Of a stretch of DNA of 39,263 nucleotides, positions 17,882 to 39,263 are shown piece after piece (position 1 is the stretch's first letter; each line of letters opens with the position of its first letter). Under the pieces are notes generated by a model. The model was given only the letters and a program-made list of their open reading frames with translations, did not search any database and was not told the origin of the DNA. The stretch is from SAR116 cluster bacterium AG-325-I21 (GTDB taxonomy: Bacteria > Pseudomonadota > Alphaproteobacteria > Puniceispirillales > Puniceispirillaceae). The position numbers were made by a program, and so were the translations under genes. The stretch is taken from contig QBYK01000015.1 of NCBI GenBank assembly GCA_003282865.1, forward strand, positions 1 through 39,263, given 5' to 3'.

Positions 17882-17995
17882 ATGCCGCGAAATCTAAGCC
17901 CGTCGCAAAAGACAGCTTTTCTGAAGAAGAGCAGAAGATATTGTAAGGAAGAAATAATGAGGTTAATTTTACTCAAAGGGAGAACGTCAGTATGA
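17882..17995 (+). CDS. Possible small ORF, 37 aa
   Basis: This short frame encodes MPRNLSPSQKTAFLKKSRRY and a basic tail. Its TGA overlaps the ATG of the next frame at 17992 (ATGA), hinting at translational coupling. The ribosome site is weak and there is no recognisable family, so this is only a candidate. Confidence 0.25.
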   Translation: MPRNLSPSQKTAFLKKSRRYCKEEIMRLILLKGRTSV

Positions 17996-18560: not shown

Positions 18561-18631
18561 CTCATATGTTCATTGGGAAAAATAGTTTGATTACGATGAT
18601 GACAACCAGACAAAGGCTGCCCCAAATAATA

Positions 18632-21650: not shown

Positions 21651-21731
21651 AAAGCCCCCCAATTCAACCCCAAAACGCCCTCAATCACAGCTCAAATTTT
21701 TAGAAACTGCAAAGACTTTTTTATAAATCAA

Positions 21732-22277: not shown

Positions 22278-22442
22278 AATTAAACAACATCATATTTGCT
22301 TATTTGTGCCAAGTTTTTTACGACTGAACGGCTTTTTCTCGTTAGATCTACCGCTAGATTTGGCGGAATATTCAAAATAAAGTTGAAATGTAATGTCATA
22401 CCAAAGTGTAGGTTTATTAAATTTAACAAGTGAGACAATACA

Positions 22443-23120
22443 TTGCTTCGTTTAATCTTATCTGTAAAAGGCATATTTATCGTATCGCTGTTTATTCTGT
22501 TGTTTAGTGGAGCCGTCATAGTCATTGAAACACAGACTAGTGCAATCAGTGCATTGTATAACCAATCCCGCCCCAGCCTGATCTCTGGTGGAGGAGAGCA
22601 ATGTCTCAAAACATTGAAAGCCGAAGGGGTTGATTTTGTCGCGCGTGGCACGCGACCAAACGGCCAATGCACGATCAAGAATGCTGTAAAAATCTCAAGC
22701 ATCAACGGTATCAAATTGAGGCCAACAATTGAAATGAACTGTAAATCTGCATTGGCTACATCAAAATGGCTCGCTGACATCAATGCCAAGACAATAACAC
22801 ACATTGGAACTTTCAATTGTCGCACTCAGCGTGTGAGCCGTATGGCTAGTGAGCATAGTTTTGGCACAGCAATCGATATCACATCTATAAATGGCGCATC
22901 AGTAAGTGAGGATTGGGGCGAGGATACGCATAAAGGCCGTTACCTGGAAAAAGCCCATTCGAGTGCATGTCAAATTTTTGCAAATGTAGTCGGCCCAGAT
23001 GATAACAAAGCGCATCGTGACCACTTTCATCTCGATACTGGTATTGGCGTCGGCTGCCTGCCCGATTGGGCAAAGAAAATCAAAAAATTGGCATATAGAG
23101 CGCTGCGAGAAGTAATCTGA
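22443..23120 (+). CDS. Extensin-like LAS/M15-type peptidase domain protein
   Basis: This 225-residue protein has an N-terminal membrane anchor (about 8-28) and a C-terminal extensin-like domain (ExtC, LAS metallopeptidase fold). H138-x6-D145 in SEHSFGTAID and H194-x-H196 in RDHFHLD supply the zinc ligands of D-Ala-D-Ala-metallopeptidase-like enzymes, and several Cys (54, 76, 100, 126, 176, 204) could form disulfides in the periplasm. The start is TTG at 22443 with AAGTGAGA about 10 bases upstream. A peptidoglycan substrate is inferred from the family. It is the last gene before the right attachment site and is divergent from the minus-strand Zorya unit. Confidence 0.8.
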   Translation: MLRLILSVKGIFIVSLFILLFSGAVIVIETQTSAISALYNQSRPSLISGGGEQCLKTLKAEGVDFVARGTRPNGQCTIKNAVKISSINGIKLRPTIEMNCKSALATSKWLADINAKTITHIGTFNCRTQRVSRMASEHSFGTAIDITSINGASVSEDWGEDTHKGRYLEKAHSSACQIFANVVGPDDNKAHRDHFHLDTGIGVGCLPDWAKKIKKLAYRALREVI

Positions 23121-23181
23121 CTTGTAGACCCATTTGTAGGCTGTAATTTTTTGTGTTATTTTCAGCCATTGAAAACAACGG

Positions 23182-23216
23182 CTTACAGTGAAGTTAGGCG
23201 GAGGGTCTCTCCGCCA
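23182..23216. repeat. Right attachment site (attR) with core and inner arm
   Basis: GTCTCTCCGCCA at 23205-23216 duplicates the last 12 bases of tRNA-Ser. CTTACAGTGAA at 23182-23192 is an exact inverted copy of 13678-13688. A perfect 7-bp stem, GGCGGAG (23197-23203) with CTCCGCC (23209-23215), overlaps the core. The cox operon ends 140 bases to the right. Together these mark the island end, giving an element of about 9.6 kb. Confidence 0.65.
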
Positions 23217-23355
23217 ATCCCCCTTCTCACAACGCCATTTTTAATTAATTTTTATTATTTTTAATCGGCCTTTATCCCTGGTTGAATATTTGTACTAGAG
23301 TTTGTGTTACGTGGTGTCTCAGTATTTCAGATACACAGCAATCCTAGTCGAGGAC

Positions 23356-24807
23356 TCAGACACAATCAGTCTCAGCTTCACTAATAATAGCATCAAGAGC
23401 ATCAGCCGTATCAACATCGCGCAAAACACCTGGATGATCACATGCTACCAAATGGTGCGCAGCCGTATGGTCATTCAACAATTGTCGCCCGCCTTGATCA
23501 CCAGTCAGGGCCGCTATACCGGCCCCCACCGATGATCCCTGCCCGCTGGCATGGTTAGGGTTAAAAACCAATTGCACAGGCAGCCCATCAAGCGCGGCGG
23601 CGACCTTATCCGCCTCATACCCAATCACGATAATGGCCGGCAATATTGACGCAGCAACAAGGGCCTCAGCTGCATACCGGATAAGCGGCTTTCCAGCAAT
23701 TGGAACCAACAATTTATTCACAGGCCCCATCCGACGCGATGCGCCAGCAGCGAGAAGAATACCCGCAACTTTGGCTTCGGCTTTCGGTTCAGTAACGAGC
23801 GCGCGTGGCATCGGGCGTGATGCAATTTCCATCAGCAAACCTCCAGCAGCCATATCTGCCAGTTCCCTTCGATCTAGCCGAATATTGGCCAGCACCAATT
23901 GCAATACCCAATCGAGACCATTTAATTTTGGCGACCTTGCACATCCCGGCATGCCAATTACGTAACCACCACCAAGATCATCACCAAACCGCCCAAGCAT
24001 TAATAAGTTACCAGGATCAACGGCAAGCCCAAGCTGATCAATTTTTCCACCAACTAACAAAACCGACTGCGGAACCTCATCCTCCCGGTCCATGATTGCC
24101 GTCCCACCACAAATTAAAACGAGTTCGGCGCCCGCTTCAATACACAATCTAATTTCGTCAGCAATAGCCACGCGATCATGCGAGCAAATACGGCTATCAA
24201 CAAGGTGACAGCCAATCCGCGAAAGGCGGGCCTGTGTAACAGTATTGGTTGCACTAAATAGCCGGCCATGCTGTCCTGCAAGCTGGGTCTGAACGAGCCC
24301 AACATTGCACTGACGCAATGGATGAAACGAGAATGCAACCGCACCATTCAGGAGTGCCTCAATCTTAGCTAGTGACGCCTCAGCTACTAAAAAAGGTATT
24401 ATCTTTAAGGTAGCCACCATCTGTCCGGCTTCTAAAAGCTGATTATGCTGAACAAGAGCGAAGGTTATGGCCTCATCAACCTCATTCAACCCGCGGATCA
24501 AATCGCGGTCATAACGGATAATACCACGCTGATCGCATCGGATGTTGACTCTTCCAGTCGCGGCTCTCGAAAACGTCAAATCTTTAGGGGACAATGCCCG
24601 CGCCAAACGATCCGCAGCAGCATCTTCATGTATATCCCCCGCGTCAGGTTTGGCGCAAATCAGGGTTTTAATGCCGTCAGCCTTTAGGCTTTCTAGCATT
24701 ACTGCATCCAGAATAGTGCCCTTGGCCAGATTGCCGTCGGAACAGACGCAACGATGTGCCAATATCAAGCCCTCGCAGTTCCCAAGTGCAAAACTGGCCA
24801 ACTTCAT
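23356..24807 (-). CDS. Molybdopterin-binding / MobA-like fusion protein with an internal deletion
   Basis: This 483-residue bifunctional protein carries an N-terminal MoeA/MogA-type molybdopterin-binding region (about residues 1-335). It includes LVLICGGTAIMDREDEVPQS and the loop GGGYVIGMPGCARSPKLNGL. A MobA-like nucleotidyltransferase (LLAAGASRRMGPVNKLL onward) follows. After GQGSSVGAGIAA the sequence jumps directly to LTGDQGGRQLLNDH. The expected middle segment with the Mg-binding LADxP motif and RRGNP motif, about 65-70 residues, is absent, so nucleotidyl transfer by this domain is doubtful. The ATG at 24807 overlaps the upstream stop (ATGA). It is the last gene of the cox operon, close to the island junction. 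Confidence 0.78.
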   Translation of the reverse strand: MKLASFALGNCEGLILAHRCVCSDGNLAKGTILDAVMLESLKADGIKTLICAKPDAGDIHEDAAADRLARALSPKDLTFSRAATGRVNIRCDQRGIIRYDRDLIRGLNEVDEAITFALVQHNQLLEAGQMVATLKIIPFLVAEASLAKIEALLNGAVAFSFHPLRQCNVGLVQTQLAGQHGRLFSATNTVTQARLSRIGCHLVDSRICSHDRVAIADEIRLCIEAGAELVLICGGTAIMDREDEVPQSVLLVGGKIDQLGLAVDPGNLLMLGRFGDDLGGGYVIGMPGCARSPKLNGLDWVLQLVLANIRLDRRELADMAAGGLLMEIASRPMPRALVTEPKAEAKVAGILLAAGASRRMGPVNKLLVPIAGKPLIRYAAEALVAASILPAIIVIGYEADKVAAALDGLPVQLVFNPNHASGQGSSVGAGIAALTGDQGGRQLLNDHTAAHHLVACDHPGVLRDVDTADALDAIISEAETDCV

Positions 24808-25259
24808 CGTAACGCCCTGCAAATATAGGCGACAAAAAATTTGCCCATCACCGGAACTGCAATTTCAGCCGGTATTTTTGCTCCAACGAATAGCCCAGCC
24901 GGCCCTTTAATTTTAGCTGTCTCTGCCTCAGAAAACCCAGCCTTTGGCAAGCATTTAGGACGCTCCACATGAGCGCTGCGACTGCCAAGACAGGCAATAT
25001 GGAACAGGGACTTGCCAAGCAACTTATGAAGAGCTGTAGCATTGAACTTGGGATTAAGCGCAAGAGCGACAAGAGTTGCCTCGTTATCAAGGTCAGTATC
25101 ACTAAGAGCAATATCCGGCCAATCATCGACGACCCTTAATCCGTGAAATCGTTCGGAAATTGCAAAAGTACGTCTTGGGTCAATCACCGTAACCTCAAAA
25201 TCAGTTTGAATAGCCATTAAGGGGAGATGTTGGCCCTCATCGGGCGCATACCGGCCCAT
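24804..25259 (-). CDS. XdhC C-terminal domain protein, N-terminally truncated (CoxI remnant?)
   Basis: This 151-residue protein holds the Rossmann-type XdhC C-terminal domain: FEVTVIDPRRTFAISERF, LRVVDDWPD, ALNPKFNATALHKLL, IACLGSRSAHVERPKC and KGPAGLFVGAKIPAEIAV. The XdhC/CoxI N-terminal domain, roughly 150-170 residues in relatives, is missing, and the first glycine-rich GAxHI strand is replaced by MGRYAPDEGQHL. It starts 6 bases after coxG. In XdhC-like proteins the two domains act together in delivering molybdenum cofactor to the hydroxylase, so this piece is either a domain working in trans with CoxF or a remnant of a coxI gene. Confidence 0.65.
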   Translation of the reverse strand: MGRYAPDEGQHLPLMAIQTDFEVTVIDPRRTFAISERFHGLRVVDDWPDIALSDTDLDNEATLVALALNPKFNATALHKLLGKSLFHIACLGSRSAHVERPKCLPKAGFSEAETAKIKGPAGLFVGAKIPAEIAVPVMGKFFVAYICRALR

Positions 25260-25265
25260 ACCGGG

Positions 25266-25769
25266 TCAAGCCGATACCGGATCACGCGGTGCCGTTTCGC
25301 CGGCATCGTCTTCTTCAGGCAGGCTTTCCTCGCCAGACATGATCTTTTCGAATTTGGTAAAGAACATTTTCGATAATTTACGCGCTGTGCTGTTGATCAG
25401 ACGCCCCCCAAGTTGCGCAATTTTACCACCTGGCTCGGCCTTCGCCACATATTTCAAAAGTGTGCTGTCCTCCTCGGCGATTAATTCGACATCAGCGCCG
25501 CCCTTAGCAAATCCGGCCAAGCCACCATCGCCTGCACCAGCTAGGCTAAATCCAGTTGGTGCATTCGTCGTATCTAACGTCACCTTACCGTTGAATTTTG
25601 CTTTTACAGGGCCAATTTTCAGTGTTACCGTGGCTTCCAGCTCATTTTTATTAGTCCAGTTTAGCACCTCACATCCCGGAATACAGGCTTTCAAAATGGC
25701 TATATCATTCAATCCCTCATACACCTTTTCCAAGGGGGCGGGAATTGTTATTTCGTCGGCTAGTTCCAT
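25266..25769 (-). CDS. coxG: CoxG, SRPBCC-fold CO dehydrogenase accessory protein
   Basis: This 167-residue protein opens with MELADEITIPAPLEKVYEGLNDI, then ACIPGCEVL, VTLKIGPVKAKFNGKVTL and VAKAEPGGKIAQLGGRLINS, the ordered motifs of the CO dehydrogenase subunit G family (a lipid-binding START-like fold). The C-terminal tail (EESLPEEDDAGETAPRD) is acidic and poorly conserved. CoxG is thought to tether CO dehydrogenase to the membrane or deliver electrons to quinones. It lies between the MobA-like gene and the XdhC piece, the usual position in cox operons. A strong AGGAGAG ribosome site precedes it. Confidence 0.9.
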   Translation of the reverse strand: MELADEITIPAPLEKVYEGLNDIAILKACIPGCEVLNWTNKNELEATVTLKIGPVKAKFNGKVTLDTTNAPTGFSLAGAGDGGLAGFAKGGADVELIAEEDSTLLKYVAKAEPGGKIAQLGGRLINSTARKLSKMFFTKFEKIMSGEESLPEEDDAGETAPRDPVSA

Positions 25770-25781
25770 TAGTCTCTCCTG

Positions 25782-26435
25782 TCAGGAAGTAATCATTCGT
25801 GCATCTGGCATCTGGCCAGTGGTGTCACGAAAGGCGTCTTGTGTGTCGATGTCGACATAAAATCCCTTTGCACAACTGTCAAACGGGTAAATGAGGTCAG
25901 GATGATTATTTAGTAATCCTCGGCATCCAAGGTTGGTTTCCCCTTTGATAATTTTTTGTCGCGCTGATGCGGGAATGATAATCGGATTACCGCGGCGCGC
26001 AAATTTACCGTCCTCGCGTTGAACTGGAACGGTAATCTGACCAATACCAGCTTTTTTATGTGCGGCAAACAACGCAGCGCAATCTGCGGCCGTCAATAAC
26101 GGCAGATCAGCCAAGCAGATCATATAACAGACCGCCTCTCCTGCGGCGATAAGACCAGCTGTAACCGAACTCATTTGCCCGGATTTATACTGCGCGTTGG
26201 TAATCATGGTCAGCGCAATCCCATCCAACACTGCCTCCACCTGCGTTGCCTCATGTCCCAGCACAACAACCGGCGGCACATCAGCAAACGCAACCAATGT
26301 TAGTGCCATTTGCCGGACCATTGGAACCCCGTTTATCGGCATTAACAGCTTGTTAAACCCGCCCATGCGTTGTGACATACCTGCGGCCAGCAAAATAGGT
26401 GTCGGCTTCTTTATAGTTGTAATTTCGGGCATCAT
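25782..26435 (-). CDS. mocA: MobA-like molybdenum cofactor cytidylyltransferase
   Basis: This protein of about 217 residues shows the LLAAGMSQRMGGFNKLLMPI nucleotide-binding loop, the LADLP Mg site (MICLADLPLLTAAD), and FARRGNPIIIP, so the catalytic motifs are intact. Family members convert molybdopterin to its cytosine dinucleotide form, which CO dehydrogenase needs at its Mo-Cu centre. The frame is open up to 26471, overlapping coxF by 35 bases. The ATG at 26435 or 26432 just after the coxF stop is the more natural start, although no strong ribosome site is seen for any. It is the undamaged counterpart of the deleted domain in the gene at 23356. Confidence 0.88.
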   Translation of the reverse strand: MMPEITTIKKPTPILLAAGMSQRMGGFNKLLMPINGVPMVRQMALTLVAFADVPPVVVLGHEATQVEAVLDGIALTMITNAQYKSGQMSSVTAGLIAAGEAVCYMICLADLPLLTAADCAALFAAHKKAGIGQITVPVQREDGKFARRGNPIIIPASARQKIIKGETNLGCRGLLNNHPDLIYPFDSCAKGFYVDIDTQDAFRDTTGQMPDARMITS

Positions 26436-26436
26436 A

Positions 26437-27273
26437 TCAGCAAGCATCATCGGTGGCACGTTGTTGTCCATCTGTACGACGTGTCTGAATAATCTCAGCC
26501 ATTATTGACAGGGCAATTTCGTCAGGTGTCACCGCATTGATATGTACCCCAGCGGGCGATCGCACAGTGGCAATTTTTGCAGCAGCTACACCAGCGTTCG
26601 TCAGCTTGCTCTCATAGCTGGCAAATTTACGGCGGCTGCCGACAAAAGCGATATATTTCGCCGCCATTTTCAGTGCAGCCGTCAACGCGATAACATCGCC
26701 CTTACCTTGGGTGGCAACAACAATATAACGGTCAACACCAGACGGGGCGGAGCTATCCATCTCCGCAAGGGAGGCATATTGCCAATCAAATGTGGCGTGT
26801 TCAATCTCCCCACACAGCAAAAGGCTAAAGCCAAATGACGCTGCGATCCGCAATAGGGCTGATGCCACAGGCCCCGATCCACATACCAGCAATTCGGGCT
26901 GTGGTTTAATCGGTTCAACAAAAATATCCATTGATCCCTTGCTCGGACAGCCATTCTGCGCAACCAGCAACATCTCATCTTCGGCGGCACCTTCCATATC
27001 GGCCAGCAATTCCTCAGGACGCAGGCAAACCAGTGTTGCCTCGCCCGTTTTGATTGCTGTGATTGCTGCTTTTTTTACCGCTGCAGTCACACAGCCTCCC
27101 CCCAGCCAGCCATCGGCGAAATCACCATTGCCCAGCACCAAGGCTTTCATTCCTGGCTTTGCCGCGGTTGATGCCAATGTCCAAACCACCGTTGCCACGG
27201 CAAAAGGGGTGCCTTCAGCGCGTAATTCATCGGCAATTACATGCGCGATATATTTATTGCTTTGACGTGTCAT
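26437..27273 (-). CDS. coxF: CoxF, XdhC-family CO dehydrogenase maturation factor
   Basis: This 278-residue protein has both XdhC domains: an N-terminal one with TPFAVATVVWTLASTAAKPG and ADGWLGGGCV, and a Rossmann-type C-terminal one with ELLVCGSGPVASALLRIAASFGF and ending in RSPAGVHINAVTPDEIALSI. XdhC-type proteins help insert and sulfurate or otherwise finish the molybdenum cofactor of hydroxylases; CoxF is the version encoded in cox operons. The start overlaps the coxE stop by four bases. It is complete, in contrast with the truncated XdhC gene downstream. Confidence 0.88.
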   Translation of the reverse strand: MTRQSNKYIAHVIADELRAEGTPFAVATVVWTLASTAAKPGMKALVLGNGDFADGWLGGGCVTAAVKKAAITAIKTGEATLVCLRPEELLADMEGAAEDEMLLVAQNGCPSKGSMDIFVEPIKPQPELLVCGSGPVASALLRIAASFGFSLLLCGEIEHATFDWQYASLAEMDSSAPSGVDRYIVVATQGKGDVIALTAALKMAAKYIAFVGSRRKFASYESKLTNAGVAAAKIATVRSPAGVHINAVTPDEIALSIMAEIIQTRRTDGQQRATDDAC

Positions 27274-28454
27274 AAGCGCTGCAATTCTCCCTCAATAGCA
27301 GCCAGACTGCTTAGGGTATTGCATGGCGCAAAGCAATCAACATACGGCAACGCGGCGGCCATGCTGGCGGCTACTGGCGCGTAATTCTTCCAGCCCAATA
27401 ATGGATTTAACCATATAATTTTACATCCGCGGCGTTTCAATCGCGCCAGCGCTTCCCCTACCCCTTGGGCGTCACCAGTGTCATAACCATCCGACATGAT
27501 AATGATTACGGTTTTGCGTCCAACCGTCCGACTGGCATATTGGTTGTTAAACGTGCGCAAGCTAGCGCCAATTTTTGTGCCACCACCAAACCCTCGTGCC
27601 ATAATGGACAACCGATTCACCGCCCGCAAGGTATCATTATCGCGAAGTGCATCACTCACGCACATCAAGCTGGTATGAAACAAAAACGCATCGGTGCGCT
27701 GGTCATTACCAATTAACCCTTTGACAAAGGACAAAAATATCCGAGCGTAAAGCTGCATTGACCCTGACACATCCAGAATACTGACCAAATGCACGGGCCG
27801 GTTGGGACGGCGGCGGCGTAACAGGCGCAACGGTTCGCCCCCTGTGGCCACTGATTTACGCATGATCCGTCGCATATCCAGCCCCTCACCCTTGCAAGCG
27901 GCTTTGCGCCTGCGTGACCGCCTGTAACGGATTGCATTAGCGATTCGGCGTGCGGTTTCGGCGGCGCGTGCTTCATCCTCGGACAGAATGAATTTGCGCA
28001 TATCAGCGGTATTGCGATTGGTCACCTGCGTCGCTATCAGTTTGCCATCGCCAGAACTTTCGGTCTCGCCGTCATTATCATTATCGGGAGTATCGATGCT
28101 GCCACTGCCGTCGGCGGACGGCTCGCTGGACTTTTGCGACAGATTTATCAGATTATTTTTCTGGTCGCTGTGATTTTGCGTTGGTGTACGGTCATGGCGC
28201 TGTTTGCCGGCATTAAACCAGAAAGCAGCGAATAATTCATCAAACCGGGAAAAGCTCTCAACGTCACTGGCAAAAATAGCCTTTAATGCAAGCCGCACCT
28301 CATTTGGATTGCCAGCATCAACTAGCTGTAAAGCCTCAAGGCTGGATTGGGTTTCCGGTATGCCGGCCCGAACACCATGCACGCGCAGGTGCCGGTTAAA
28401 ATCATTCACGCGCTCAGCGATGCTGGCGCGGGTCAAAAAACGCGTTACAGCCAT
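27270..28454 (-). CDS. coxE: CoxE, VWA-domain protein for Cu/Mo centre maturation
   Basis: This 394-residue protein has an acidic linker (about 110-140, SSEPSADGSGSIDTPDNDND) and a strongly basic segment (RYRRSRRRKAACKGEG). A VWA domain follows, whose MIDAS motif reads SILDVSGSM near residue 230, with later SDGYDTGDA and IIWLNPL. CoxE works with the AAA+ ATPase CoxD in assembling the bimetallic Cu-Mo centre of the large subunit. The start overlaps the coxD stop by one base (TAATG), and the stop overlaps coxF. Confidence 0.9.
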   Translation of the reverse strand: MAVTRFLTRASIAERVNDFNRHLRVHGVRAGIPETQSSLEALQLVDAGNPNEVRLALKAIFASDVESFSRFDELFAAFWFNAGKQRHDRTPTQNHSDQKNNLINLSQKSSEPSADGSGSIDTPDNDNDGETESSGDGKLIATQVTNRNTADMRKFILSEDEARAAETARRIANAIRYRRSRRRKAACKGEGLDMRRIMRKSVATGGEPLRLLRRRRPNRPVHLVSILDVSGSMQLYARIFLSFVKGLIGNDQRTDAFLFHTSLMCVSDALRDNDTLRAVNRLSIMARGFGGGTKIGASLRTFNNQYASRTVGRKTVIIIMSDGYDTGDAQGVGEALARLKRRGCKIIWLNPLLGWKNYAPVAASMAAALPYVDCFAPCNTLSSLAAIEGELQRL

Positions 28455-29353
28455 TATCCCGCCTTGCCAGCCAAACGCTGGGCAACCTCGCTGGGAATAG
28501 CTGCCTGATCGGCCTCAGTTTTCAGCAAGCACACGAGCGACGACTTCAATGCAATTGGATCGACGGCGATGTCATTTACCCCCAAACCACCCAGCGCCGC
28601 GGCCCAATCTAGTGTTTCGGCAATACCCGGTTTTTTTTCTAAATCTTCTTTGCGCAAGCTTTGCACAAAGCTGACGATCTGGGCTGCCAATGCGGGTTCA
28701 ACCGCCGGACAACGCGCCCGTAGGATAGCTAATTCAGTTGTGCGGTCGGGATAGGGAACAAAATTATAAATACAGCGCCGCCGCAACGCATCCGACAGGT
28801 CCCGCGTACCATTTGAGGTCAACAAAACAATTGGCTTACTCGTCGCGGTAATGGTGCCCATTTCAGGTATAGTCACCTGAAAATCGGATAGTATTTCCAG
28901 GAGATAGGCTTCGAATTCCTCATCGGCCCTGTCAATCTCGTCAATCAGCAAAACCGGCGGCTTTTCTTGCTGGATCGCTCGTAACAGGGGGCGCTCCATC
29001 AGATAATCGGCTGAAAATATCCGTGTTTCGATATCGTCAATCGCTTTGCTACTATCACCTTCACGCTCACCGGTACGCTCAGCCATTGCCCGGATTGACA
29101 GCAGTTGGCGCTGGTAATTCCATTCATAGATTGCCGCCGACGCATCTAGCCCCTCATAGCATTGCAACCTAATCAATTCGGTATCATGGATGTCTGCCAG
29201 TGTCTTTGCTATCTCGGTTTTGCCCACGCCTGCATTGCCTTCAAGCAAAATGGGCCGTTCCAACCCCAGCGCAATATGCAGCGCCATCGCGAGTTCGGAC
29301 GATGCGATATAGCCTTCGCCGGCCAGCTTAGTTTGTAAATTCTGCCAATTCAT
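28454..29353 (-). CDS. coxD: CoxD, AAA+ ATPase for CO dehydrogenase maturation
   Basis: This MoxR-class ATPase (299 residues from the chosen start) has Walker A GNAGVGKTE near residue 40, Walker B LLIDEIDRAD with the following EEFEAYLLEIL, and sensor 1 LLTSNGTRDLSDAL with ALRRRC. CoxD unfolds the apo large subunit so that sulfur and copper can be added to the Mo site. The open frame reaches 29461, overlapping coxL, but the ATG at 29353 with MNWQNLQTKL matches the family start and avoids a 46-base overlap. A 62-base intercistronic gap with hairpins separates it from coxL. Confidence 0.9.
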   Translation of the reverse strand: MNWQNLQTKLAGEGYIASSELAMALHIALGLERPILLEGNAGVGKTEIAKTLADIHDTELIRLQCYEGLDASAAIYEWNYQRQLLSIRAMAERTGEREGDSSKAIDDIETRIFSADYLMERPLLRAIQQEKPPVLLIDEIDRADEEFEAYLLEILSDFQVTIPEMGTITATSKPIVLLTSNGTRDLSDALRRRCIYNFVPYPDRTTELAILRARCPAVEPALAAQIVSFVQSLRKEDLEKKPGIAETLDWAAALGGLGVNDIAVDPIALKSSLVCLLKTEADQAAIPSEVAQRLAGKAG

Positions 29354-29356
29354 GAC

Positions 29357-29403
29357 TGCCTGCGCAAAAAAAATAGCAGGCAGAGGGCAATATACCCTCT
29401 GCC
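29357..29403 (-). terminator. Terminator-like and alternative hairpin between coxL and coxD
   Basis: On the minus strand GGCAGAGGG (29403-29395) pairs perfectly with CCCTCTGCC (29387-29379) around a 7-base loop. Five bases after the stem a run of eight T follows (29373-29366). A second stem, TGCCTGC (29382-29376) with GCAGGCA (29363-29357), shares four bases with the first and covers the region just before the coxD ATG at 29353. The two folds exclude each other. This would lower coxDEFG relative to the structural genes. Confidence 0.65.
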
Positions 29404-29415
29404 GAGTCTTTGGGT

Positions 29416-31836
29416 TTAGTCGTGCAGACCAAGGCTGTTCGCTATTTTCCAGATCCGCCAATGGTCATGCGGCATATGGCTTTGCGTCAGGCCAAAGCTC
29501 TTGAACGCATCATGCACGGCGTTTGAAAACGCTGGTACACCACCAACATTTGGGCTCTCCCCCACCCCTTTGGCACCGATTGGATGATGCGGGCTTGGTG
29601 TTTCGGTAAAGTCCGTCTGGTAATTTGGTGTTTCCCAAGCGGTTGGCATGAAAAAGTCCATCAAGGTGCCGGTCGTAACGTTGCCCTGATCATCATAGGC
29701 AATTTCTTGACCTAGGGCAATCGCCAATGCTTCGGTCAACCCACCATGCACCTGACCTTCGATAATCATCGGGTTGATCCGAGTACCGCAATCGTCCAGA
29801 GCATAGAACTGGCGGATTTCAGTTGTGCCGGTATCGACATCAATTTCCATTACACAGACATAGGCTCCGAATGGATAGGTCATGTTTGGCGGGTCATAAT
29901 AGCTGACCGCTTCTAGACCCGGCTCGACACCTGGGATTGCCTGATTATATGACGCAAAGGCGATCTCCTTCATTGTTTTAAAGCGCTCGGGCGCGCCTTT
30001 GACAGAAAAGCGATCAACATCCCATTCGACGTCATTATCGTGCACTTCCAACAGATAAGCTGCGATCATCTGCGCCTTAGCGCGGATTTTACGACCAGCC
30101 ATAGCTGTTGCGGCACCTGCTACGGGTGTCGACCGTGATCCATACGTCCCCAAACCATATGGTGCCGTGTCAGTATCACCTTCCTCAAGCGTGATATCCT
30201 CTGCTGGAATGCCGATCTCAGATGCCAGAATTTGTGCAAAGGTTGTTGCGTGGCCTTGTCCTTGCGAGATTGTTCCCAATCGGGCAATTGCCGATCCAGT
30301 CGGATGGATCCGAATTTCGCATGAGTCAAACATGCCCAAGCCCAAAATGTCACAATTTTTCACCGGACCCGCACCAACAATCTCTGTAAAGTGGCTAAGC
30401 CCGATACCAATCAGCTTGCGTGTCTCGCCACGGCCGAATGCAGCCAGACGCTCGGCCTGTTCTGCTCGCAGCCCCTGATAATCCACAGCTGCCAAGGCTT
30501 TGTTCCATGAAGTATGATAATCGCCCGAATCATATTCCCAACCCAAAGCGGACTGATATGGGAACTGGTCCTTGCGTATAAAATTTTTCGCCCGCAAATC
30601 GGCAGCATCCATTCCGAGCTTAATCGCCAAAACCTCGATCATGCGTTCAATGAAGTAGGCCGCCTCAGTCACCCGGAAAGAACAACGATAAGCAACGCCG
30701 CCTGGTGCCTTGTTGGTGTAAATGCCGTCAACGGCCAGATAGGCGGTTGGAATATCATATGAACCAGTACAAATATTCATGAACCCTGCTGGGAATTTTG
30801 TTGGATCGGCACAGGCGTCAAAGGCACCGTGGTCAGCTGTTGTATGACACCATAATCCGGTAATTTTGCCCTCTTTTGTGGCTGATATCTTACCCTGCAT
30901 CCAATAATCGCGGGCAAATGCCGTGGCCATCAGATTATCCATGCGATCTTCAACCCATTTAACCGGCACACCTGTTACAATCGATGCTACAATTGCACAG
31001 ATATATCCGGGATAAACACCAACTTTGTTACCAAAGCCACCGCCGATGTCGGGGGAAACGATGCGGATATTGTGCTCGGCGATGCCGGAAATCAATGACG
31101 CCACGGTCCGCACGGCATGCGGTGCTTGGAATGTACCCCAAACGGTCAACTTGCCGTTAACCTTATCCATTGACGCCACGCAGCCACATGTCTCAAGTGG
31201 ACAGGGGTGCGTGCGATGGTAATATACCATTTCCTCCGCCATGACCTCGGCTTCTGAAAGCACTGACTCAGTGGCGGCCCGGTCTCCCGACTCCCATGTG
31301 AAAATATGGTTGGGATGGCGGCGTGGACCATGCGCCCCTTCACTTTGGTCAGCGATATCCTCTCGTAACACGGGAGCGTCATTTAGTTCCGCTTTGAACG
31401 GGTCAACAAGAACCGGCAACTCCTCGTATTCAACCATAACGGCCTGAATGCCGTCATCAGCGACATACCGGTCATCAGCGACGACATAAGCCACTTCCTG
31501 TCCTTGAAACAATACCTTGCCGTCAGCAAGAACCATTTGCTTGTCGCCCGCAAGCGTTGGCATCCAATGCAGGCCAAGCGGCTCCAGATCGGCAGCGGTC
31601 AAAACCGCATGCACACCAGGCAGCGACAATGCGGCTTCGGTGTTGATTGATTTAATTCGCGCATGCGCATACGGCGAGCGAACAAAATCACCAAACAGCA
31701 TGCCCGGCATTTTCATATCATCGACATAATTACCTTTACCTTGGGTAAAACGCGCATCCTCAACACGTTTGCGAGACGTTCCAAGACCGCTAAGCGCGGC
31801 CATGCGTTCTTCTTTCGGAGGTATAGACTCATTCAT
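29416..31836 (-). CDS. coxL: Form I aerobic CO dehydrogenase large (Mo-Cu) subunit
   Basis: This 806-residue catalytic subunit oxidises CO to CO2 at a Mo-S-Cu centre carrying molybdopterin cytosine dinucleotide. The diagnostic active-site loop is AYRCSFR at residues 382-388, with Cys385 as the copper ligand; this separates true form I CODH from form II and other hydroxylases. Other matching features are Q237 in GTFQAPH, the SPDIGGGFGNK block (261-271) and the general-base E760 in GAKGVGE. The length matches characterised form I CoxL (about 809). The gene overlaps coxS by one base (TAATG). The coxM-coxS-coxL order also fits form I. No frame damage is seen. Confidence 0.96.
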   Translation of the reverse strand: MNESIPPKEERMAALSGLGTSRKRVEDARFTQGKGNYVDDMKMPGMLFGDFVRSPYAHARIKSINTEAALSLPGVHAVLTAADLEPLGLHWMPTLAGDKQMVLADGKVLFQGQEVAYVVADDRYVADDGIQAVMVEYEELPVLVDPFKAELNDAPVLREDIADQSEGAHGPRRHPNHIFTWESGDRAATESVLSEAEVMAEEMVYYHRTHPCPLETCGCVASMDKVNGKLTVWGTFQAPHAVRTVASLISGIAEHNIRIVSPDIGGGFGNKVGVYPGYICAIVASIVTGVPVKWVEDRMDNLMATAFARDYWMQGKISATKEGKITGLWCHTTADHGAFDACADPTKFPAGFMNICTGSYDIPTAYLAVDGIYTNKAPGGVAYRCSFRVTEAAYFIERMIEVLAIKLGMDAADLRAKNFIRKDQFPYQSALGWEYDSGDYHTSWNKALAAVDYQGLRAEQAERLAAFGRGETRKLIGIGLSHFTEIVGAGPVKNCDILGLGMFDSCEIRIHPTGSAIARLGTISQGQGHATTFAQILASEIGIPAEDITLEEGDTDTAPYGLGTYGSRSTPVAGAATAMAGRKIRAKAQMIAAYLLEVHDNDVEWDVDRFSVKGAPERFKTMKEIAFASYNQAIPGVEPGLEAVSYYDPPNMTYPFGAYVCVMEIDVDTGTTEIRQFYALDDCGTRINPMIIEGQVHGGLTEALAIALGQEIAYDDQGNVTTGTLMDFFMPTAWETPNYQTDFTETPSPHHPIGAKGVGESPNVGGVPAFSNAVHDAFKSFGLTQSHMPHDHWRIWKIANSLGLHD

Positions 31837-32324
31837 TACGCTGACTCCTTCATTTCATTCATTTTGGCCGCGGCGGCAAGAATTGCTTTGACAATATTCT
31901 GATAACCTGTGCACCGGCAAAGATTGCCTGATATGCCAAATCGGACTTCTTCTTCAGATGGGTTGCTATTTTCCTGCAAAAGCCGGTGTGCGCGGGTGAT
32001 CATTCCCGGGGTGCAATAGCCGCACTGCAAGCCATGATGTTCTTTGAACATTTCTTGCAGCGCATGCAGCCCATCGGGCGATCCCAACCCTTCGATCGTT
32101 GTAATTTCAGCATGTTGGGCTTGCGCCGCAAAAACAGTGCATGATTTTACCGACATGCCATTCATATCGACCGTACAGGCACCGCAATGTGATGACTCAC
32201 ATCCAACATGCGCGCCGGTCAGGTTGAGCTCCTCGCGCAACACGTGGATTAGCAACTGACGTGGTTCGGCCATGAGTTCTACGTCTTTTCCGTTGACGGT
32301 CATTTTCAGATGTGTTTTTCCCAT
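31836..32324 (-). CDS. coxS: CO dehydrogenase small (2Fe-2S) subunit
   Basis: This 162-residue iron-sulfur subunit carries electrons from the Mo site to the FAD subunit. The plant-type ferredoxin cluster uses C42, C47, C50 and C62, and the second, helical cluster uses C101, C104, C136 and C138 (CGYCTPGM and CRCTGY). All eight cysteines are present with normal spacing. The ribosome site GGGAGAGAG lies a few bases before the ATG. It sits between coxM (14-base gap) and coxL (one-base overlap). Confidence 0.96.
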
Positions 32325-32338
32325 GTCTCTCTCCCAAA

Positions 32339-33193
32339 CTAAGCCCGCGCCAAAGCGCTGGTAATCGCTTTTTTGACGATAACGCCAGCCACATATTTTT
32401 TGAAATCGACCGGACCGCGTGTGTCAGCCACCGGGTCGGACGCATCAACGGCCGCTGCGACCGCAACTTTGATCGTTGTGTCGTCGAGGCTGCTACCCAC
32501 AAGTGCGTCAACCGCTGCACCGCAATAAACGGGTGTATCCGAGAGATTAGTCAATGCCACCGACGCCGCTGTGCATGTACCGCCCACAATCGTAATCATC
32601 ACACCGGCTGCCGCTGTTGCGTAATCGCCAATTTTGCGCTTTTGTTTTTCATAGGCAAAGCCGCCCGAAGGTTTCGCAAACGAAATGGCGGTCAAGATTT
32701 CTTCATCTTCCCGCGCGGTAAAATAGGCCGCTTCGTAAAAATCGCGCGCTTTAACCTCCCGCTTGCCCGCTGGTCCTGTCAGATGATAGGTCGCATCAAG
32801 CGTTTGCATCAAACCGGGCATGTCGTTGGCCGGGTCACCATTTGCCACATTGCCTCCAATTGTACCCATGTAGCGCACCTGCGGGTCAGCAATTTGCAGT
32901 GATGCCTCACGGATCAATGGCGCCGCTTCGGCTAGTGCTTCATCAGTGGCGAGCTCGTGCTGTGTTGTCATTGCCCCGATAGTGATAGTATCGCCATCGA
33001 TAGAAACGCCTTTTAATTCCGAAATGCCGCCGAGATCAATCAAATGGCTGATATCGGTCATCCGCTGTTTCATTACCGGGATCAAGCTATGGCCGCCGGC
33101 AACAACGCGCGCATCATCGCCCCATTTCGACAACAGGCTGATAACCCCATCGACCGTGTCAGGTTTGTGGTATTCAAAAGCACTGGCTATCAT
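32339..33193 (-). CDS. coxM: CO dehydrogenase medium (FAD) subunit
   Basis: This 284-residue flavoprotein subunit has both FAD-pyrophosphate motifs at the positions known for CoxM: AGGHS at residues 32-36 and TIGG at 111-114 ([17 protein letters not shown]). A C-terminal CODH-type domain follows (about 170-284). It passes electrons onward to the respiratory chain. It is the first gene of the operon, with AAAGGAGC seven bases upstream of the ATG. A 1.1-kb non-coding region with a 17-bp inverted repeat precedes it. Confidence 0.95.
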
Positions 33194-33360: not shown

Positions 33361-33406
33361 TAGTTAATAATCATTCTTAATTACAGCTCAGAATGATTAT
33401 TAACTA
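33361..33406. promoter_or_regulatory. Perfect 17-bp inverted repeat upstream of coxM
   Basis: TAGTTAATAATCATTCT at 33361-33377 is exactly mirrored by AGAATGATTATTAACTA at 33390-33406 around a 12-base spacer, about 170 bases upstream of the coxM start. The arms are AT-rich and no T-tract follows, so an operator for a dimeric regulator is more likely than a terminator. No regulator gene such as coxC or coxH is nearby. Confidence 0.55.
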
Positions 33407-34346
33407 TCTTCGGTGGTGCACAGTCACATTTTCAACTGAACCAGACATCACCACCATTGCCGCTGCTTCAAGATGTTGGCAAAACCGAAACAACTAAAAA
33501 GGGCACAATTTGCAATCGATTGCTCTTGAGCTTAGCCCAGTTTTGAATGCCTGCACAAAAAAGCACATGCTAGAGTTCCGCTTCTTTTACAGCAAATACA
33601 GAGATATTTCAAAAGAAGGCTTGAACCCCAAGACTGACAGCAGTCCTTGCTTCAGGAAAAACTATTGGGCGAACACTAACGACTGACTCATTAAAGCGCT
33701 CAACCTTCTCTTTGTGTGATGTCGGCATGTGAATTGCTGGCATGCAAGGGCAAGAAAACTGGAAACATGTATTGTCCAAAACACATAAAAATAGTCCCAT
33801 TGAGCGTTATTCGCGCAAATCAAACGTTGACATTGCCCATCAAACACATCAACCAATCACATTAATCGCCGGCCCAAGGTGCAAGCCCCTGTTCCCTCGG
33901 GCCCATACCGTCGTGATAAAGTCATTCTTAAATAAAACGCCGCCCTCAGTAACCCTGATTTTGATTTGGGGTAAAATTATTTGAAACTAGAATAAACTAG
34001 AATAATGAATCATAATCAATAGCTTGATTTTGCATGGGACAGACTGTCTCTAAACCACTTATTTTATAATAAATACAACAGTTTGTGTCATATAGTTAAA
34101 ACGCTCAGGTATCACACCCTCGGCGCTTTTTTCCTTTGGTGTAAGTCAAGGACTCGATCAGTGACGATAATGTCATGAAAGAGCACTAAATTAGGCACTT
34201 GTATCCTTGCCGACCCCAAGAACTGGCAAGGTTTGTCAACAAATGGGGTATCAAATCGTTATACAACAATAGATTGTAAAATCGATAAAGGCACTGCCGC
34301 GGCGTTGCCACGAGAAGTCCCACCTGCGATTGATATTTGCTAGTAG
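33407..34346. other. Gene-poor region upstream of the cox operon
   Basis: I see no supportable gene here. Short frames on both strands (for example around 33609-33800 on the minus strand) lack a ribosome site and recognisable motifs. The segment is AT-rich and may contain remains of older insertions, but I cannot name any. Confidence 0.5.
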
Positions 34347-34751
34347 CTATTCGACTGGTGTCATAATTTTTTGCCCATCAACTCCGATAGCGACTACGAT
34401 TGCTTTGATCGGAACGTCACGAGTATTTTTTGAGCTGCGGACCACCCCGACATCCTCAATAAACGCGTCGTCTGGCCTATAAACTCTAGATTTCCCATCT
34501 CGGTAATTTAATGCGACTTCGCCCTGCTGGATGATCAATAGTACAGGAAAGGATTGTGTATGTGGAGCTACAGGAGCGCCGACAGGGACGGTGAATTCGA
34601 AAGCGGTTATCTTTGCCTCACCTGTTTGGTAAACAATTTTTTTGCCAAGCACCGTCTCACCCGTGAATATAATGCGTCTAACATGCCCGTTCGCGAATGC
34701 TTGCCCTATCTAGCTTGGTAAAGCTGAAAAAATAACAGCAATTCTTAACAT
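34347..34751 (-). pseudogene. Cupin-fold secreted protein gene with an in-frame amber codon
   Basis: An ATG at 34751 has a good AAAGGAG site and starts a signal peptide, MLRIAVIFSALPS, that is cut by TAG at 34712-34710. Reading through continues in the same frame as IGQAFANGHVRRIIFTGETV and then a 101-residue cupin-like domain (VPVGAPVAPHTQSFPVLLII, then QQGEVALNYRDGKSRVYRPD) up to 34347. The intact ancestor would be a small periplasmic cupin of about 134 residues. A GTG at 34652 could start a signal-less form. A single substitution explains the break, so the gene is probably freshly inactivated. Confidence 0.65.
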
Positions 34752-35183: not shown

Positions 35184-35235
35184 CTTGAAAACCGGCAAGC
35201 TGGCGTCACCTTCCAGAGTTCGGATCCCGGTCTCT
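35184..35235 (+). pseudogene. tRNA-Ser 3' fragment (old attachment scar)
   Basis: These 52 bases match tRNA-Ser positions 13537-13588 at 46 sites in the same orientation. The match begins exactly at the anticodon loop (CTTGAAA) and ends in the acceptor stem (GTCTCT), after which similarity stops before the CCA. The 5' half is absent, so it is not a functional tRNA. Such one-sided tRNA copies are the usual mark of an element integrated in a tRNA gene. Confidence 0.8.
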
Positions 35236-35445: not shown

Positions 35446-36450
35446 TTAATTTTCTAGCCTGTGTGAGTCTTTTTCTTCCCAATTCGATGTAATGGCCATT
35501 CCAATTTGCAAGTTACTCGAAAAAAAAAGTTCGTCGCTCAGTAAAGACTGAATTTCTCTACCGTCTGGGTAAATTGCCGTCACTTTAACTTTCTCGCCTT
35601 GAAATTCAATTGCCGAAATCATGGCTTCTTCCAAGCCCGATTTCTTTACTGCATGAAAAGACGTTTTATCCATTCTTACAGCATACTTCTTTCCAAGCCT
35701 TGTTACGATGTTGTGATTACCCACAAATTTTGCCACAAATTCATTCTTTGGGTGATTAAAAATAATAGCAGGTCGATCTATTTGTTCAATTTGGCCAGAA
35801 TTCATGACTACAATCACATCTGAAAGCGCTAGGGCTTCGTCCTGCGCGTGCGTCACATGAATGAAGGTTATTCCGAGCTTTTGCTGCAAGGTTTTTAGCT
35901 CATACCGCATTTTCACCCTTAGAAAGGGATCCAACGCTGATAGAGGTTCATCAAGTAATAAAATTGACGGTTTAGTTATAAGTGATCGTGCTAAAGCCAC
36001 CCTTTGTTGTTGACCTCCTGACAACTGATTAGGATACCGTTGTTTGAACTCCGACATCCTAACCATCTCCAGTATCTCGGCCGTCTGATGGCTTCTTTCA
36101 ACTGGCTTGATGCCTCGCATTTTCAGAGGAAAACCTACATTGTCCGAACAATTGAGATGGGGAAATAGCGCATAGTTTTGAAACATCATCGAAGTTCCCC
36201 GCTTAGCCGGCGGTAGATCATTAATAACAGTTTTACCCAGAACTATTTCTCCACTTGTGATATGCTCGTGTCCAGCAATCATCCGTAAAGTTGATGTTTT
36301 GCCACATCCAGATGGTCCAAGAAGACAACAATAAGTTCCAGCCTGCAGTTTTAAATTAACGTTCTTTACTGCATTAACATTTTCATAGTTCTTGTGCACG
36401 GAAGCTAGTTCTAAATCTTCAGGCTTTTGAGCGCCAAAGGTTTCTTGCAT
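35446..36450 (-). CDS. potA: ABC transporter ATPase, PotA-like
   Basis: This 334-residue ATPase has Walker A GPSGCGKTS at about residues 45-53, Q-loop FQNYALFPHL, signature LSGGQQQRVALARSL, Walker B ILLLDEPLSALDP and the switch His in THAQDEA. A C-terminal TOBE-like domain (about 245-334) follows, as in PotA and other family-1 importers. It is transcribed away from the binding-protein gene at 36669, which is unusual for Pot operons where potA usually leads. With the permeases it would power uptake of a polyamine-like or other small organic solute. Confidence 0.9.
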   Translation of the reverse strand: MQETFGAQKPEDLELASVHKNYENVNAVKNVNLKLQAGTYCCLLGPSGCGKTSTLRMIAGHEHITSGEIVLGKTVINDLPPAKRGTSMMFQNYALFPHLNCSDNVGFPLKMRGIKPVERSHQTAEILEMVRMSEFKQRYPNQLSGGQQQRVALARSLITKPSILLLDEPLSALDPFLRVKMRYELKTLQQKLGITFIHVTHAQDEALALSDVIVVMNSGQIEQIDRPAIIFNHPKNEFVAKFVGNHNIVTRLGKKYAVRMDKTSFHAVKKSGLEEAMISAIEFQGEKVKVTAIYPDGREIQSLLSDELFFSSNLQIGMAITSNWEEKDSHRLEN

Positions 36451-36668
36451 TGAAAATTTGCCTCGTTAGGTTATTCAAGACTTTATAAGTGTTGATTAAG
36501 TCAAAAGGTTGCGATTGTGTCCATCATACTAGAATTTTCTAAATCGAAGTTACCACATTGCTCAGTAATGACCGTGATGCAACATTTGCACTAGTGTCTT
36601 ATGTTTATTCTTCTAGAGTTTTTTTCTCTTTTTTTTATTATCATAATAAATTTGATTAGGAGACTTAA

Positions 36669-37949
36669 ATGCAAAAAAGTTCATCGAAGAAAATTACACG
36701 TAGGAAAATGCTTCAGAATTCTGCTGCGGTTGGCGCAGTTGCTGGCGCGAGTATTATTACTGGTTTTCCTGCAGTTCACGCCCAAGATGCTCCAACAATT
36801 CGCTATCTTGGAACAGCTGTCAACATGGGCAGCGAACCTGAGAAACGCCTATTTGAGGACACTGGCATAAAAGTTAAATATATATCAAAAACTACCGATG
36901 AAGTTGTGAAAACTATTCTAACTCAACCCAATAGCTTTGACATTGTTGACTCTGAATATTTCAGTATGCCGAAACTAGTCCCGTCTGGCAGTTTGCTTGG
37001 GATGGACACAAAGCGGATCAAGGAGTGGAGCAATGTTGTAACAGCATTCACTGAAGGTAAAGTTGGAGGCAAAACAATTGGTGACCAGGGCACCGCTCCA
37101 AAAAAAGTTCTTTATCTCAAAGGTTCAAGCTCTAAAGAATTTTCTTCAGAGGCGACTCAGTATGTTACGCTAATTCCTACGGTTTACAACGCCGATACCC
37201 TAGGTATTAGACCTGATCTGATAAAGCGGCCTATAAGTACTTGGGCAGAACTTTTAAATCCAGAGTTTAAGGGCAAAGCTTGCATTCTAAACATTCCCTC
37301 AATCGGTATAATGGATGCTGCCATGGTTGTGGAAGCCATGGGCGAGTACAAATACCCGGACAAAGGAAATATGACAAAAGCTGAAATCGACTTGACCATG
37401 AAAATCTTCACAGAAGCAAAGAAATCAGGTCAGTTTCGGGCTTTTTGGAGCGATTTTAACGAAAGCGTGAACTTAATGGCATCTGGGGAAGTGGTGATAC
37501 AATCAATGTGGGCACCCGCAATTACTGCGGTTCGATCTCAAGGTATTCCATGCGTTTATCAACCTTTAAAAGAGGGGTATAGAGCTTGGGCAGCAGGATT
37601 TGCGCTTCCATCAACAGCAAAGGGGCGCCAAGCTGATATCTGTTACGAATATATAAACTGGTTCCTATCAGGTTGGATGGGTGCTTACCTTAACCGACAA
37701 GGCTATTATTCTGCCGTGCTTTCAACGGCGGAAGCAAACATGGAGTCTTACGAGTGGGATTATTGGATGAAAGGTAAAGCGGCCACAAAAGACATACTAT
37801 CGCCAACCGGACAGAAGCTAGCTTCGATTGGTGAGGTTCGAGACGGGGGATCGTACGAAGACAGAATGGGCGGCGTAGCCTGCTGGAATGCAACCATGGA
37901 CGAAAACAAGTATATGGTAAGGAAATGGAACGAGATGATTGCTTCTTAA
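36669..37949 (+). CDS. potD: Tat-exported solute-binding protein, PotD-like
   Basis: This 426-residue periplasmic binding protein starts with a twin-arginine signal (TRRKMLQN, Arg pair near residues 11-12, then AAVGAVAGASIITGFPAVHA). The mature part has the family-1 layout: APTIRYLGTAVNMGSEPEKR, FDIVDSEYFSMPKLV, IPTVYNADTLGI, a hinge around VIQSMWAPAITAVR and a C-terminal WMKGKAA segment. The ribosome site TTAGGAG is about 7 bases before the ATG. Spermidine/putrescine is the default guess from the neighbours; the ligand is not shown by the sequence. Confidence 0.85.
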   Translation: MQKSSSKKITRRKMLQNSAAVGAVAGASIITGFPAVHAQDAPTIRYLGTAVNMGSEPEKRLFEDTGIKVKYISKTTDEVVKTILTQPNSFDIVDSEYFSMPKLVPSGSLLGMDTKRIKEWSNVVTAFTEGKVGGKTIGDQGTAPKKVLYLKGSSSKEFSSEATQYVTLIPTVYNADTLGIRPDLIKRPISTWAELLNPEFKGKACILNIPSIGIMDAAMVVEAMGEYKYPDKGNMTKAEIDLTMKIFTEAKKSGQFRAFWSDFNESVNLMASGEVVIQSMWAPAITAVRSQGIPCVYQPLKEGYRAWAAGFALPSTAKGRQADICYEYINWFLSGWMGAYLNRQGYYSAVLSTAEANMESYEWDYWMKGKAATKDILSPTGQKLASIGEVRDGGSYEDRMGGVACWNATMDENKYMVRKWNEMIAS

Positions 37950-37959
37950 TCCATTAATA

Positions 37960-37987
37960 GCAGGGCATCCTGGGAAGGGTGTCCTGC
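37960..37987 (+). promoter_or_regulatory. Intercistronic hairpin after the binding-protein gene
   Basis: GCAGGGCATCC (37960-37970) pairs with GGGTGTCCTGC (37977-37987) around a six-base loop, with two G-T pairs. No T-tract follows. Hairpins at this position in importer operons commonly protect the upstream mRNA and raise the binding protein over the permeases. Confidence 0.6.
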
Positions 37988-38008
37988 ATCTTTAAGGTGA
38001 CTGAACAA

Positions 38009-38878
38009 ATGAAAGTTAATTGGTCTTTTTTTCTGGCATTACCTTTCTACAGCATATTTGTTTTTTTCTTTTTTTTACCTCTGGTTTTAACATTTGTTGT
38101 CAGCTTTTGGGATTACACGGATTACTCGATAATACCAGATTTTATTCTATCCAATTATCATTACATATTTGAAGGATGTTTGAGTTTCGCAGATGAACCA
38201 TGTTTGACGTTCAGAACCTACGCCTCCACTTTGTTTTTTTGCCTATTTACCTGGTTCTTTACGCTCATTCTTGGCTTCACAGTTTCATTTTTTTTAGCGT
38301 TTCACGTGCGCTCCACTCCATTGCAGATTGGCTTGTTTCTTCTGTGCACGATCCCGTTTTGGACATCAAACGTCATCAGAATGGTATCTTGGATACCCCT
38401 TCTGGGTCGAAATGGAATGTTCAATGACTTTTTGCTCAACTTCAATATAATTGAAACACCGGTTGATTGGTTTTTATTTTCGCCGTTCTCTGTTTTGGTA
38501 GCTTTTGTTCATCTCTATACACTTTTTATGATTGTTCCAATTTTCAACTCAATGATGAGGATAGACCGTTCATTGATAGAAGCCGCTTTCGATGCCGGCG
38601 CCAGCCAGTATCAAATTCTTATTGGTGTAATCATACCGCTTTGTAAGCCCGGTATTCTTATTGGCTCAATTTTTGTTATCACAGTGGTGATGGGTGATTT
38701 CCTCACGATTGGAATCATGGGTGGTCAACAAATCGCATCAATAGGGAAGATCATTCAAGTTGAGATGGCTTATTTGCAACTGCCCGCGGCAGCTGCCAAC
38801 GCAGTGATCTTATTGGTTGTCACGTTGTTAATGATTTTCTTAATGACGAGGATCATTGACATTAGGAGAGAGCTTTAG
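38009..38878 (+). CDS. potB: ABC transporter permease, PotB-like
   Basis: This 289-residue membrane protein has six predicted helices, the first in FFLALPFYSIFVFFFFLPLV (residues 5-25). The EAA-type cytoplasmic loop is IEAAFDAGASQYQILIGVIIPL CKPGI (about 190-216). It resembles PotB/family-1 permeases. I took the ATG at 38009 because AAGGTG is eight bases upstream; a GTG at 37979 would add ten hydrophilic residues. The stop is directly followed by the next permease ATG (38879). Confidence 0.88.
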   Translation: MKVNWSFFLALPFYSIFVFFFFLPLVLTFVVSFWDYTDYSIIPDFILSNYHYIFEGCLSFADEPCLTFRTYASTLFFCLFTWFFTLILGFTVSFFLAFHVRSTPLQIGLFLLCTIPFWTSNVIRMVSWIPLLGRNGMFNDFLLNFNIIETPVDWFLFSPFSVLVAFVHLYTLFMIVPIFNSMMRIDRSLIEAAFDAGASQYQILIGVIIPLCKPGILIGSIFVITVVMGDFLTIGIMGGQQIASIGKIIQVEMAYLQLPAAAANAVILLVVTLLMIFLMTRIIDIRREL

Positions 38879-39263
38879 ATGATTAATAATAGAGGATTTT
38901 CCTTTTATTTTTGCCTACTTGTGTTCTCCGCATTCGTGTTATTTTTATATGGACCAACCCTCACTATTATTTTATTGAGCTTTCAAGGGCCAGAAGGTGG
39001 ACTAACATTTCCAATGAATGGATTTTCATTTCACTGGTTTTATAAGCTTTATGAAGGCGGAGGATATGTTGATATCGGATCGGCATTCAGACGATCCTTT
39101 ATTTTAGGGACGACAGTCATGGTACTGACTGTTGTGTTGTCCATAGCTGCTGGAATGGCTTTCCGAAAAAAGTTCCCTGGCTCGAGCGTTCTATTTTATT
39201 TAACAATTTCTAGTTTAATTGTCCCATCAATCATTCTTTCTTTAGGTGTCGCACTCGAATTCC
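38879..39263 (+). CDS. potC: ABC transporter permease, PotC-like, 5' part only
   Basis: The frame begins with MINNRGFSFYFCLLVFSAFV directly after the potB stop and runs out of the window after about 128 residues. The first helix (10-33), the ILLSFQGPEGG loop with PMNGFSFHWFYKLYEG and the next helices (LGTTVMVLTVVLSIAAGMAF) match PotC-type family-1 permeases. The second half with the EAA loop lies beyond the end. It should form the heterodimeric channel with the preceding permease. Confidence 0.85.
   Translation, partial: MINNRGFSFYFCLLVFSAFVLFLYGPTLTIILLSFQGPEGGLTFPMNGFSFHWFYKLYEGGGYVDIGSAFRRSFILGTTVMVLTVVLSIAAGMAFRKKFPGSSVLFYLTISSLIVPSIILSLGVALEF

Follow-up and report, generated by a model that had tools for sequence, protein, structure and literature searches.

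The window, that is, the whole stretch of 39,263 nucleotides analyzed here, is contig C15 of the draft genome (80% complete) of SAR116 cluster bacterium AG-325-I21. An intact tRNA-Ser(UGA) gene (13505-13594, forward strand; ARAGORN, and Rfam with 60.3 bits), the integration target of the locus, is followed by a Zorya-carrying integrative element (13595-23216, forward strand) with a type-2 left end and ZorA, ZorB and ZorE of type II. Beyond this element lies a CO dehydrogenase cluster on the reverse strand (23356-33193; Pfam), arranged as coxM-S-L-D-E-I-(mobA)-G with extra XdhC_C and MobA-like genes, and the CoxL motif AYRCSFR (form I pattern AYxCSFR) together with the coxMSL order places it in form I. 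Farther outwards we found a fragment of a trypsin/PDZ protease gene (33609-33806, reverse strand; 71-79% DNA identity, named from the Pfam domains of its homologues), a cupin pseudogene with one in-frame stop (34347-34751, reverse strand; Pfam Cupin_2, translation), a 52-bp piece of tRNA-Ser (35184-35235, forward strand) and, at the outer edge, divergent genes for a polyamine-type ABC transporter (35446-39263), with potA on the reverse and potD, potB and potC on the forward strand.

Comparison with relatives suggested that this tRNA gene is a busy integration site. HlyD/AcrB genes adjoin tRNA-Ser in many relatives, and the DNA on the opposite side varies widely across the eight genomes compared. 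Type-1 integrases were found at tRNA-Ser in G009, G010 and G005, and type-2 elements in G002 and G012. On contig C8 of G005, stacked type-1 ends and integrase-less cargo (PrpF-like, TauD-like) give way to genes that are syntenic with those flanking tRNA-Ser in G004 and G011; on G010:C18 (L167), a cluster of urease and ABC-transporter genes closes with a type-1 right end, to which a type-2 left end is directly joined. Sequence comparison of this kind supports tRNA-Ser(UGA) as an accretion hotspot in which elements would be added in layers.

The Zorya element appears to be the youngest layer. Its left end matched the type-2 left ends located after tRNA-Ser in G012, G002, G024 and G030 (z 4.9-19.7, 0 of 200 shuffles), and it encodes an intact tyrosine integrase (13711-14946, forward strand; Arm-DNA-bind_3, Phage_int_M and Phage_integrase). 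The element also contains a gene resembling a terminase small subunit (15329-15835, forward strand; PHROG 7344, E 2e-8), which suggests a phage-satellite-like carrier. In addition, an Mrr-type restriction endonuclease domain was detected at 16154-16951 (Mrr_cat, E 5.7e-6), possibly a second defence gene.

The 52-bp piece of tRNA-Ser had drawn attention in an earlier sequence-only reading, which described it as starting at the anticodon loop, in direct orientation, with 46 matches and 21.6 kb from the intact gene. These details held: the alignment is ungapped (46/52), it covers positions 33-84 of the 90-base tRNA, in which the anticodon loop begins at position 33, and it starts 21.59 kb past the tRNA end. 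The match is significant both within the window (E 2.5e-14) and against the whole genome (E 6.6e-13), and a search of the draft genome returned no further comparable fragment besides full tRNA-Ser genes. Because the final six tRNA bases (CCGCCA) are missing, T-stem pairs are broken and neither Rfam nor ARAGORN called a tRNA at 35184-35235, the piece is a relic and not a gene. Among tRNA alleles, those of G006 and G011 matched best (47/52), followed by that of the window's own genome (46/52) and G010 (45/52), while all alleles beyond these four closest genomes reached at most 40/52. The relic is thus nearest to the alleles of the host lineage, which fits the expectation for a displaced 3' half of a host tRNA.

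Like an attR, the scar is a 3' tRNA fragment in direct orientation that starts in the anticodon loop. It stops short of the tRNA 3' end, however, and the sequence next to it does not match the original flank: its right flank is unlike the tRNA flank, and only 68 bp resemble DNA near a tRNA-Thr element of G012. Given the missing CCGCCA and the unmatched flank, we call it an attR-like relic and not a complete attR, and we assume that its outer junction was altered later by a deletion. The element that made the scar is gone, and between the tRNA and the scar only later elements remain. That no element of the matching class adjoins the scar now, and that its 3' end and right flank differ from an intact attR, would be expected if the match were due to chance or to ordinary duplication of a tRNA, but this explanation is very improbable in view of the E value of 2.5e-14 and of the position at which the fragment begins. 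Two viral contigs carry a half tRNA-Ser beside a tyrosine integrase, starting at exactly the same base as the scar and lacking the 5' half, and half-tRNA-Leu(CAA) scars in a related family span positions 33-85. Islands in tRNA genes use three crossover subsites, namely the anticodon loop, the T loop and the T/acceptor junction (Islander, PMC4383910), and integration at the first of them should leave a fragment that starts in the anticodon loop and extends to the 3' side. We therefore read the 52-bp scar as a displaced 3' half-tRNA that an anticodon-loop integration would have left behind. Its start base, its host-lineage allele and the viral half-tRNAs all bear out the proposal that it is an old integration mark.

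The same reading had proposed that the scar brackets the cox cluster, and here the evidence pointed elsewhere. When the region from 33.2 to 35.4 kb was searched against the genus, the sequence at 33839-34057 (forward strand) proved to be 64-73% identical to sequences in G005, G010 and G006 (best E about 1e-23). These homologs terminate in the tRNA-Ser 3' end CTGTCTCTCCGCCA or in a decayed version of it and are right ends of integrative elements. Several right ends hold TGTGGGGTAAAATGTGGGGTAAGAT as a double repeat. At the left ends in G010 and G005, the interval from the tRNA to the integrase gene contains a pair that is nearly identical to it. At the tRNA, this 25-bp arm pair adjoins the type-1 integrase, and elsewhere it recurs in right ends; a reversed-pattern control gave no matches in 61 genomes. 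In the window, the relic type-1 right end retains a single arm site, TTTGGGGTAAAAT (33965-33977), and closes with a previously unnoticed second scar of 14 bp, CTGTCTCTaaacCA (34044-34057, forward strand), a decayed attR core (CTGTCTCTAAACCA) that agrees with the tRNA 3' end at 11 of 14 positions. From this core onward, the sequence resembles the DNA after tRNA-Ser in G006 (74% over 137 bp, E 6e-20), and the segment 34058-34176 (forward strand), a candidate pre-insertion flank, is 75% identical to the bases immediately downstream of the intact tRNA-Ser of that genome. The junction is thus chimeric in the way an attR requires, with element ends on its left side and the tRNA flank of G006 on its right. 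We initially considered 34058-34176 to be proven native flank but downgraded this assignment, because the G006 contigs read hold three sequences of this kind and the flank may itself be element DNA.

An intact homologue of the protease fragment is located about 5 kb downstream of tRNA-Ser in G010, beside type-1 right-end sequence. A search of viral contigs for the right-end sequence found none; two viral matches to AGACTGTCTCTCCGCCA look like chance, the rest of the end sequence being absent. A 46-bp near-palindrome (83% to its own reverse complement) was also observed in the gap after coxM (33361-33406), and similar DNA is present in G011:C2.

At the other side of the cluster, the edge of the cox layer lies at 23205-23344 and consists of a short Zorya attR followed by an element-type left end. 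The 12-bp sequence GTCTCTCCGCCA (23205-23216, forward strand) matches the tRNA 3' end at 12 of 12 positions and represents both the attR of the Zorya element and the edge that the cox element once had on its tRNA side. The following ∼128 bp (23217-23344, forward strand) form a relic type-1 left end (z 5.0-6.2 against G010, G009 and G005, 0 of 200 shuffles), with far weaker or no signal at other tRNA flanks; the match is AT-rich and modest. This homology ends 12 bp short of the cox genes, so that the integrase and its arm sites are absent from the left end.

With the left end at 23205-23344 and the right end at 33839-34057 enclosing the cluster, the cox genes sit in an element of ∼10.8 kb that has both ends and has lost its integrase. 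This is the organization of a cis-mobilizable element (CIME) remnant, with att sites at both ends (23205-23216, and the decayed one at 34044-34057) and cargo ORFs without integrase or transfer genes according to Pfam. A search of the draft genome also found no full type-1 integrase, and the 11/14 att core and the lost arm sites suggest that the cox layer would now be immobile. The type-1 right end at 33839-34057 led us to reject the 52-bp scar as the right edge of the cox element; the scar sits 1.13 kb outward of that end and belongs to another integrase class, that of the anticodon loop. It appears to be a separate fossil landing mark just beyond the cox layer, and the cox DNA ends before reaching it. 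If one older element had spanned the interval from the tRNA to the scar and carried cox together with adjacent DNA, this would account for the fact that the scar is real and lies outside cox. This possibility seems unlikely, because a separate end with its own relic of the tRNA 3' end (33839-34057) and then a tRNA-type flank precede the scar, and because the two boundaries differ in class (anticodon loop for the scar, tRNA 3' end for the cox element). Thus, we prefer an independent cox element. Of the original proposal that cox and adjacent DNA arrived through the tRNA hotspot, the entry route most likely stands for cox, whereas the scar as its bracket does not; that tRNA-Ser was used before the Zorya island is also supported.

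The distribution of the cargo was consistent with such an entry. A close CoxL orthologue is encoded by 26 of the order's 136 genomes and by 2 of the 16 in the genus, and none of the relatives examined has form I cox in the examined DNA downstream of tRNA-Ser, so that the cluster does not occupy one syntenic position in all close relatives. In the sister species G005, eight cox proteins are 85-97% identical to those of the window (mean 90%), whereas the median for 44 reciprocal best hits between the two genomes (the window's being G000) was 70%, and only 2% of them reached 85.5%. It should be mentioned that 400-kb samples, from which composition and orthologue identity were computed, yielded only these 44 pairs, that some of them are probably paralogues and that conserved enzymes inflate identity. 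The G005 cluster, too, has a type-1 end sequence at either side, although the att cores there are lost, and this arrangement together with the high identity supports a transfer of cox by this type-1 element family. The G005 cox contig (L059) also encodes two more integrase-type genes (14188-14802 and 15835-16983), one with a DUF6538 domain; a DUF6538 integrase is also present after tRNA-Thr in G012:C20, close to the stretch that is similar to the scar's right flank.

The cox genes might instead be old chromosomal DNA that came to lie by chance between unrelated element relics, an idea to which the high conservation of CoxL across bacteria and the occurrence of cox just outside tRNA-Leu half-tRNA scars in another SAR116 family would lend some weight. 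We regard it as quite unlikely: within the genus cox is confined to 2 of 16 genomes, matching element ends lie on the correct sides, and the G005 cox proteins, even CoxE and CoxI, which are poorly conserved, surpass almost every sampled orthologue in similarity. Base composition contributed little to this question. The impression that cox is richer in G+C than the pot genes was correct (51.3% and 40.8%, respectively; genome sample 46.1%), and none of 40 sampled 10-kb windows reached the cox value. However, the cox genes are also G+C-richer than the DNA around them in four of the five other hosts (G005, G022, G057 and G055, but not G042), which makes the argument weak, and we dropped G+C as a sign of foreign origin. 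Entry of the cox cluster through the tRNA-Ser hotspot thus seems most likely on the evidence of its ends and distribution.

The sequence of the locus therefore presents a stack of a half-tRNA scar, a cox element with both ends and an intact Zorya element next to the tRNA. First, an element with an anticodon-loop integrase would have integrated and then been lost except for the displaced half-tRNA. A type-1 element, with an integrase that cleaves close to the tRNA 3' end, might next have brought or captured cox, and by shedding its integrase and arm sites it would have become a fixed remnant of the cis-mobilizable type. Finally, the type-2 Zorya element would have entered the regenerated tRNA and displaced the cox layer outwards. 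Today, cox is presumably an ordinary chromosomal CO-oxidation cluster and the scars presumably have no function. Decay follows the same gradient from outside to inside: a half-tRNA scar, a cox att site of 11/14 with the integrase lost, and a Zorya att site of 12/12 with an intact integrase. As scars can also serve as targets, we only infer the age order from position, but position and decay agree on it. We consider this layered account as a whole to be probable.

How such elements might move is hinted at by a viral contig (IMGVR_UViG_3300025849_003787; L297 1-1737), on which an integrase identical to the type-1 integrase of the G005 tRNA-Ser island is followed by a terminase small subunit gene. 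With such genes on a viral contig and in the Zorya element, phage packaging would be a plausible transfer route. As a tentative extension, which we think could well be wrong, SAR116 might share tRNA-Ser(UGA) elements of one family, whose ends, made up of arm-site repeats and the tRNA 3' end, are fixed and whose metabolic cargo can be exchanged; many of them would lack an integrase and depend on resident integrases or related phages for movement in trans. The cargo would comprise CO oxidation, urease, a TauD-type dioxygenase, hydantoinase and transport genes.

Tandem islands at a tRNA gene, cis-mobilizable elements among them, are already known, and the stack in the window falls into this kind without a new mechanism. 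A close parallel is seen in Dehalococcoides (vcrABC), where the ssrA gene is followed by tandem islands with short direct repeats of the gene's 3' end between them and with a catabolic operon as cargo; 15 islands there lack an integration module and were called possible cis-mobilizable elements by the authors (PMC3146451). Those islands rely on serine recombinases and tmRNA, whereas here tyrosine integrases and tRNA-Ser(UGA) are involved and an anticodon-loop scar is added. The additive flexible islands of Methylophilaceae (PMC10872708) share recurring tRNA 3'-end repeats (20 bp there), variable cargo and a streamlined aquatic host; in the present case, by contrast, element ends with integrase arm-site repeats were identified, and the cargo concerns CO oxidation and defence. 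Tycheposons, as PMC10872708 and PMC11389934 describe them, are likewise tRNA-bound cargo elements of marine bacteria with a tyrosine recombinase; membership, which we do not claim, would also call for characteristic replication/packaging gene modules. The cox layer has no recombinase. With regard to Islander-type islands (PMC4383910), subsites A (anticodon loop) and J (T/acceptor junction) account for the long and the short scars, respectively; stacks of at least three are rare there (four are listed), and the rules applied demand one integrase per island. In SAR116, which are abundant bacteria of the surface ocean, CO dehydrogenase is known to have a patchy distribution; a phylogenomic study of the group mentions the enzyme and, in the passages found, no such element (PMC8547437). 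A bounded element around form I cox would offer a concrete route for the gain and spread of this trait and a testable explanation of its patchiness. The stack also suggests that two integrase classes exploited one tRNA at different times.

The hotspot may extend beyond the scar. PotD is 85% identical to that of a genus of another family and 75% to that of its own genus, in which pot lies elsewhere. The pot genes are probably still inside the hotspot, because it is contig C18 of the same draft genome that carries the flank equivalent to that of the relatives, the link from C15 to C18 being inferred. Finally, we examined half-tRNA-Leu(CAA) scars upstream of cox in another SAR116 family (L163 2086-2138 and 7187-7239; L159 7254-7306 and 8600-8652; L164 11905-11954) as a parallel bracket; the scars are real, yet cox there lies outside them. 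In G055 and G066, cox begins ∼115 bp past an intact tRNA-Leu.
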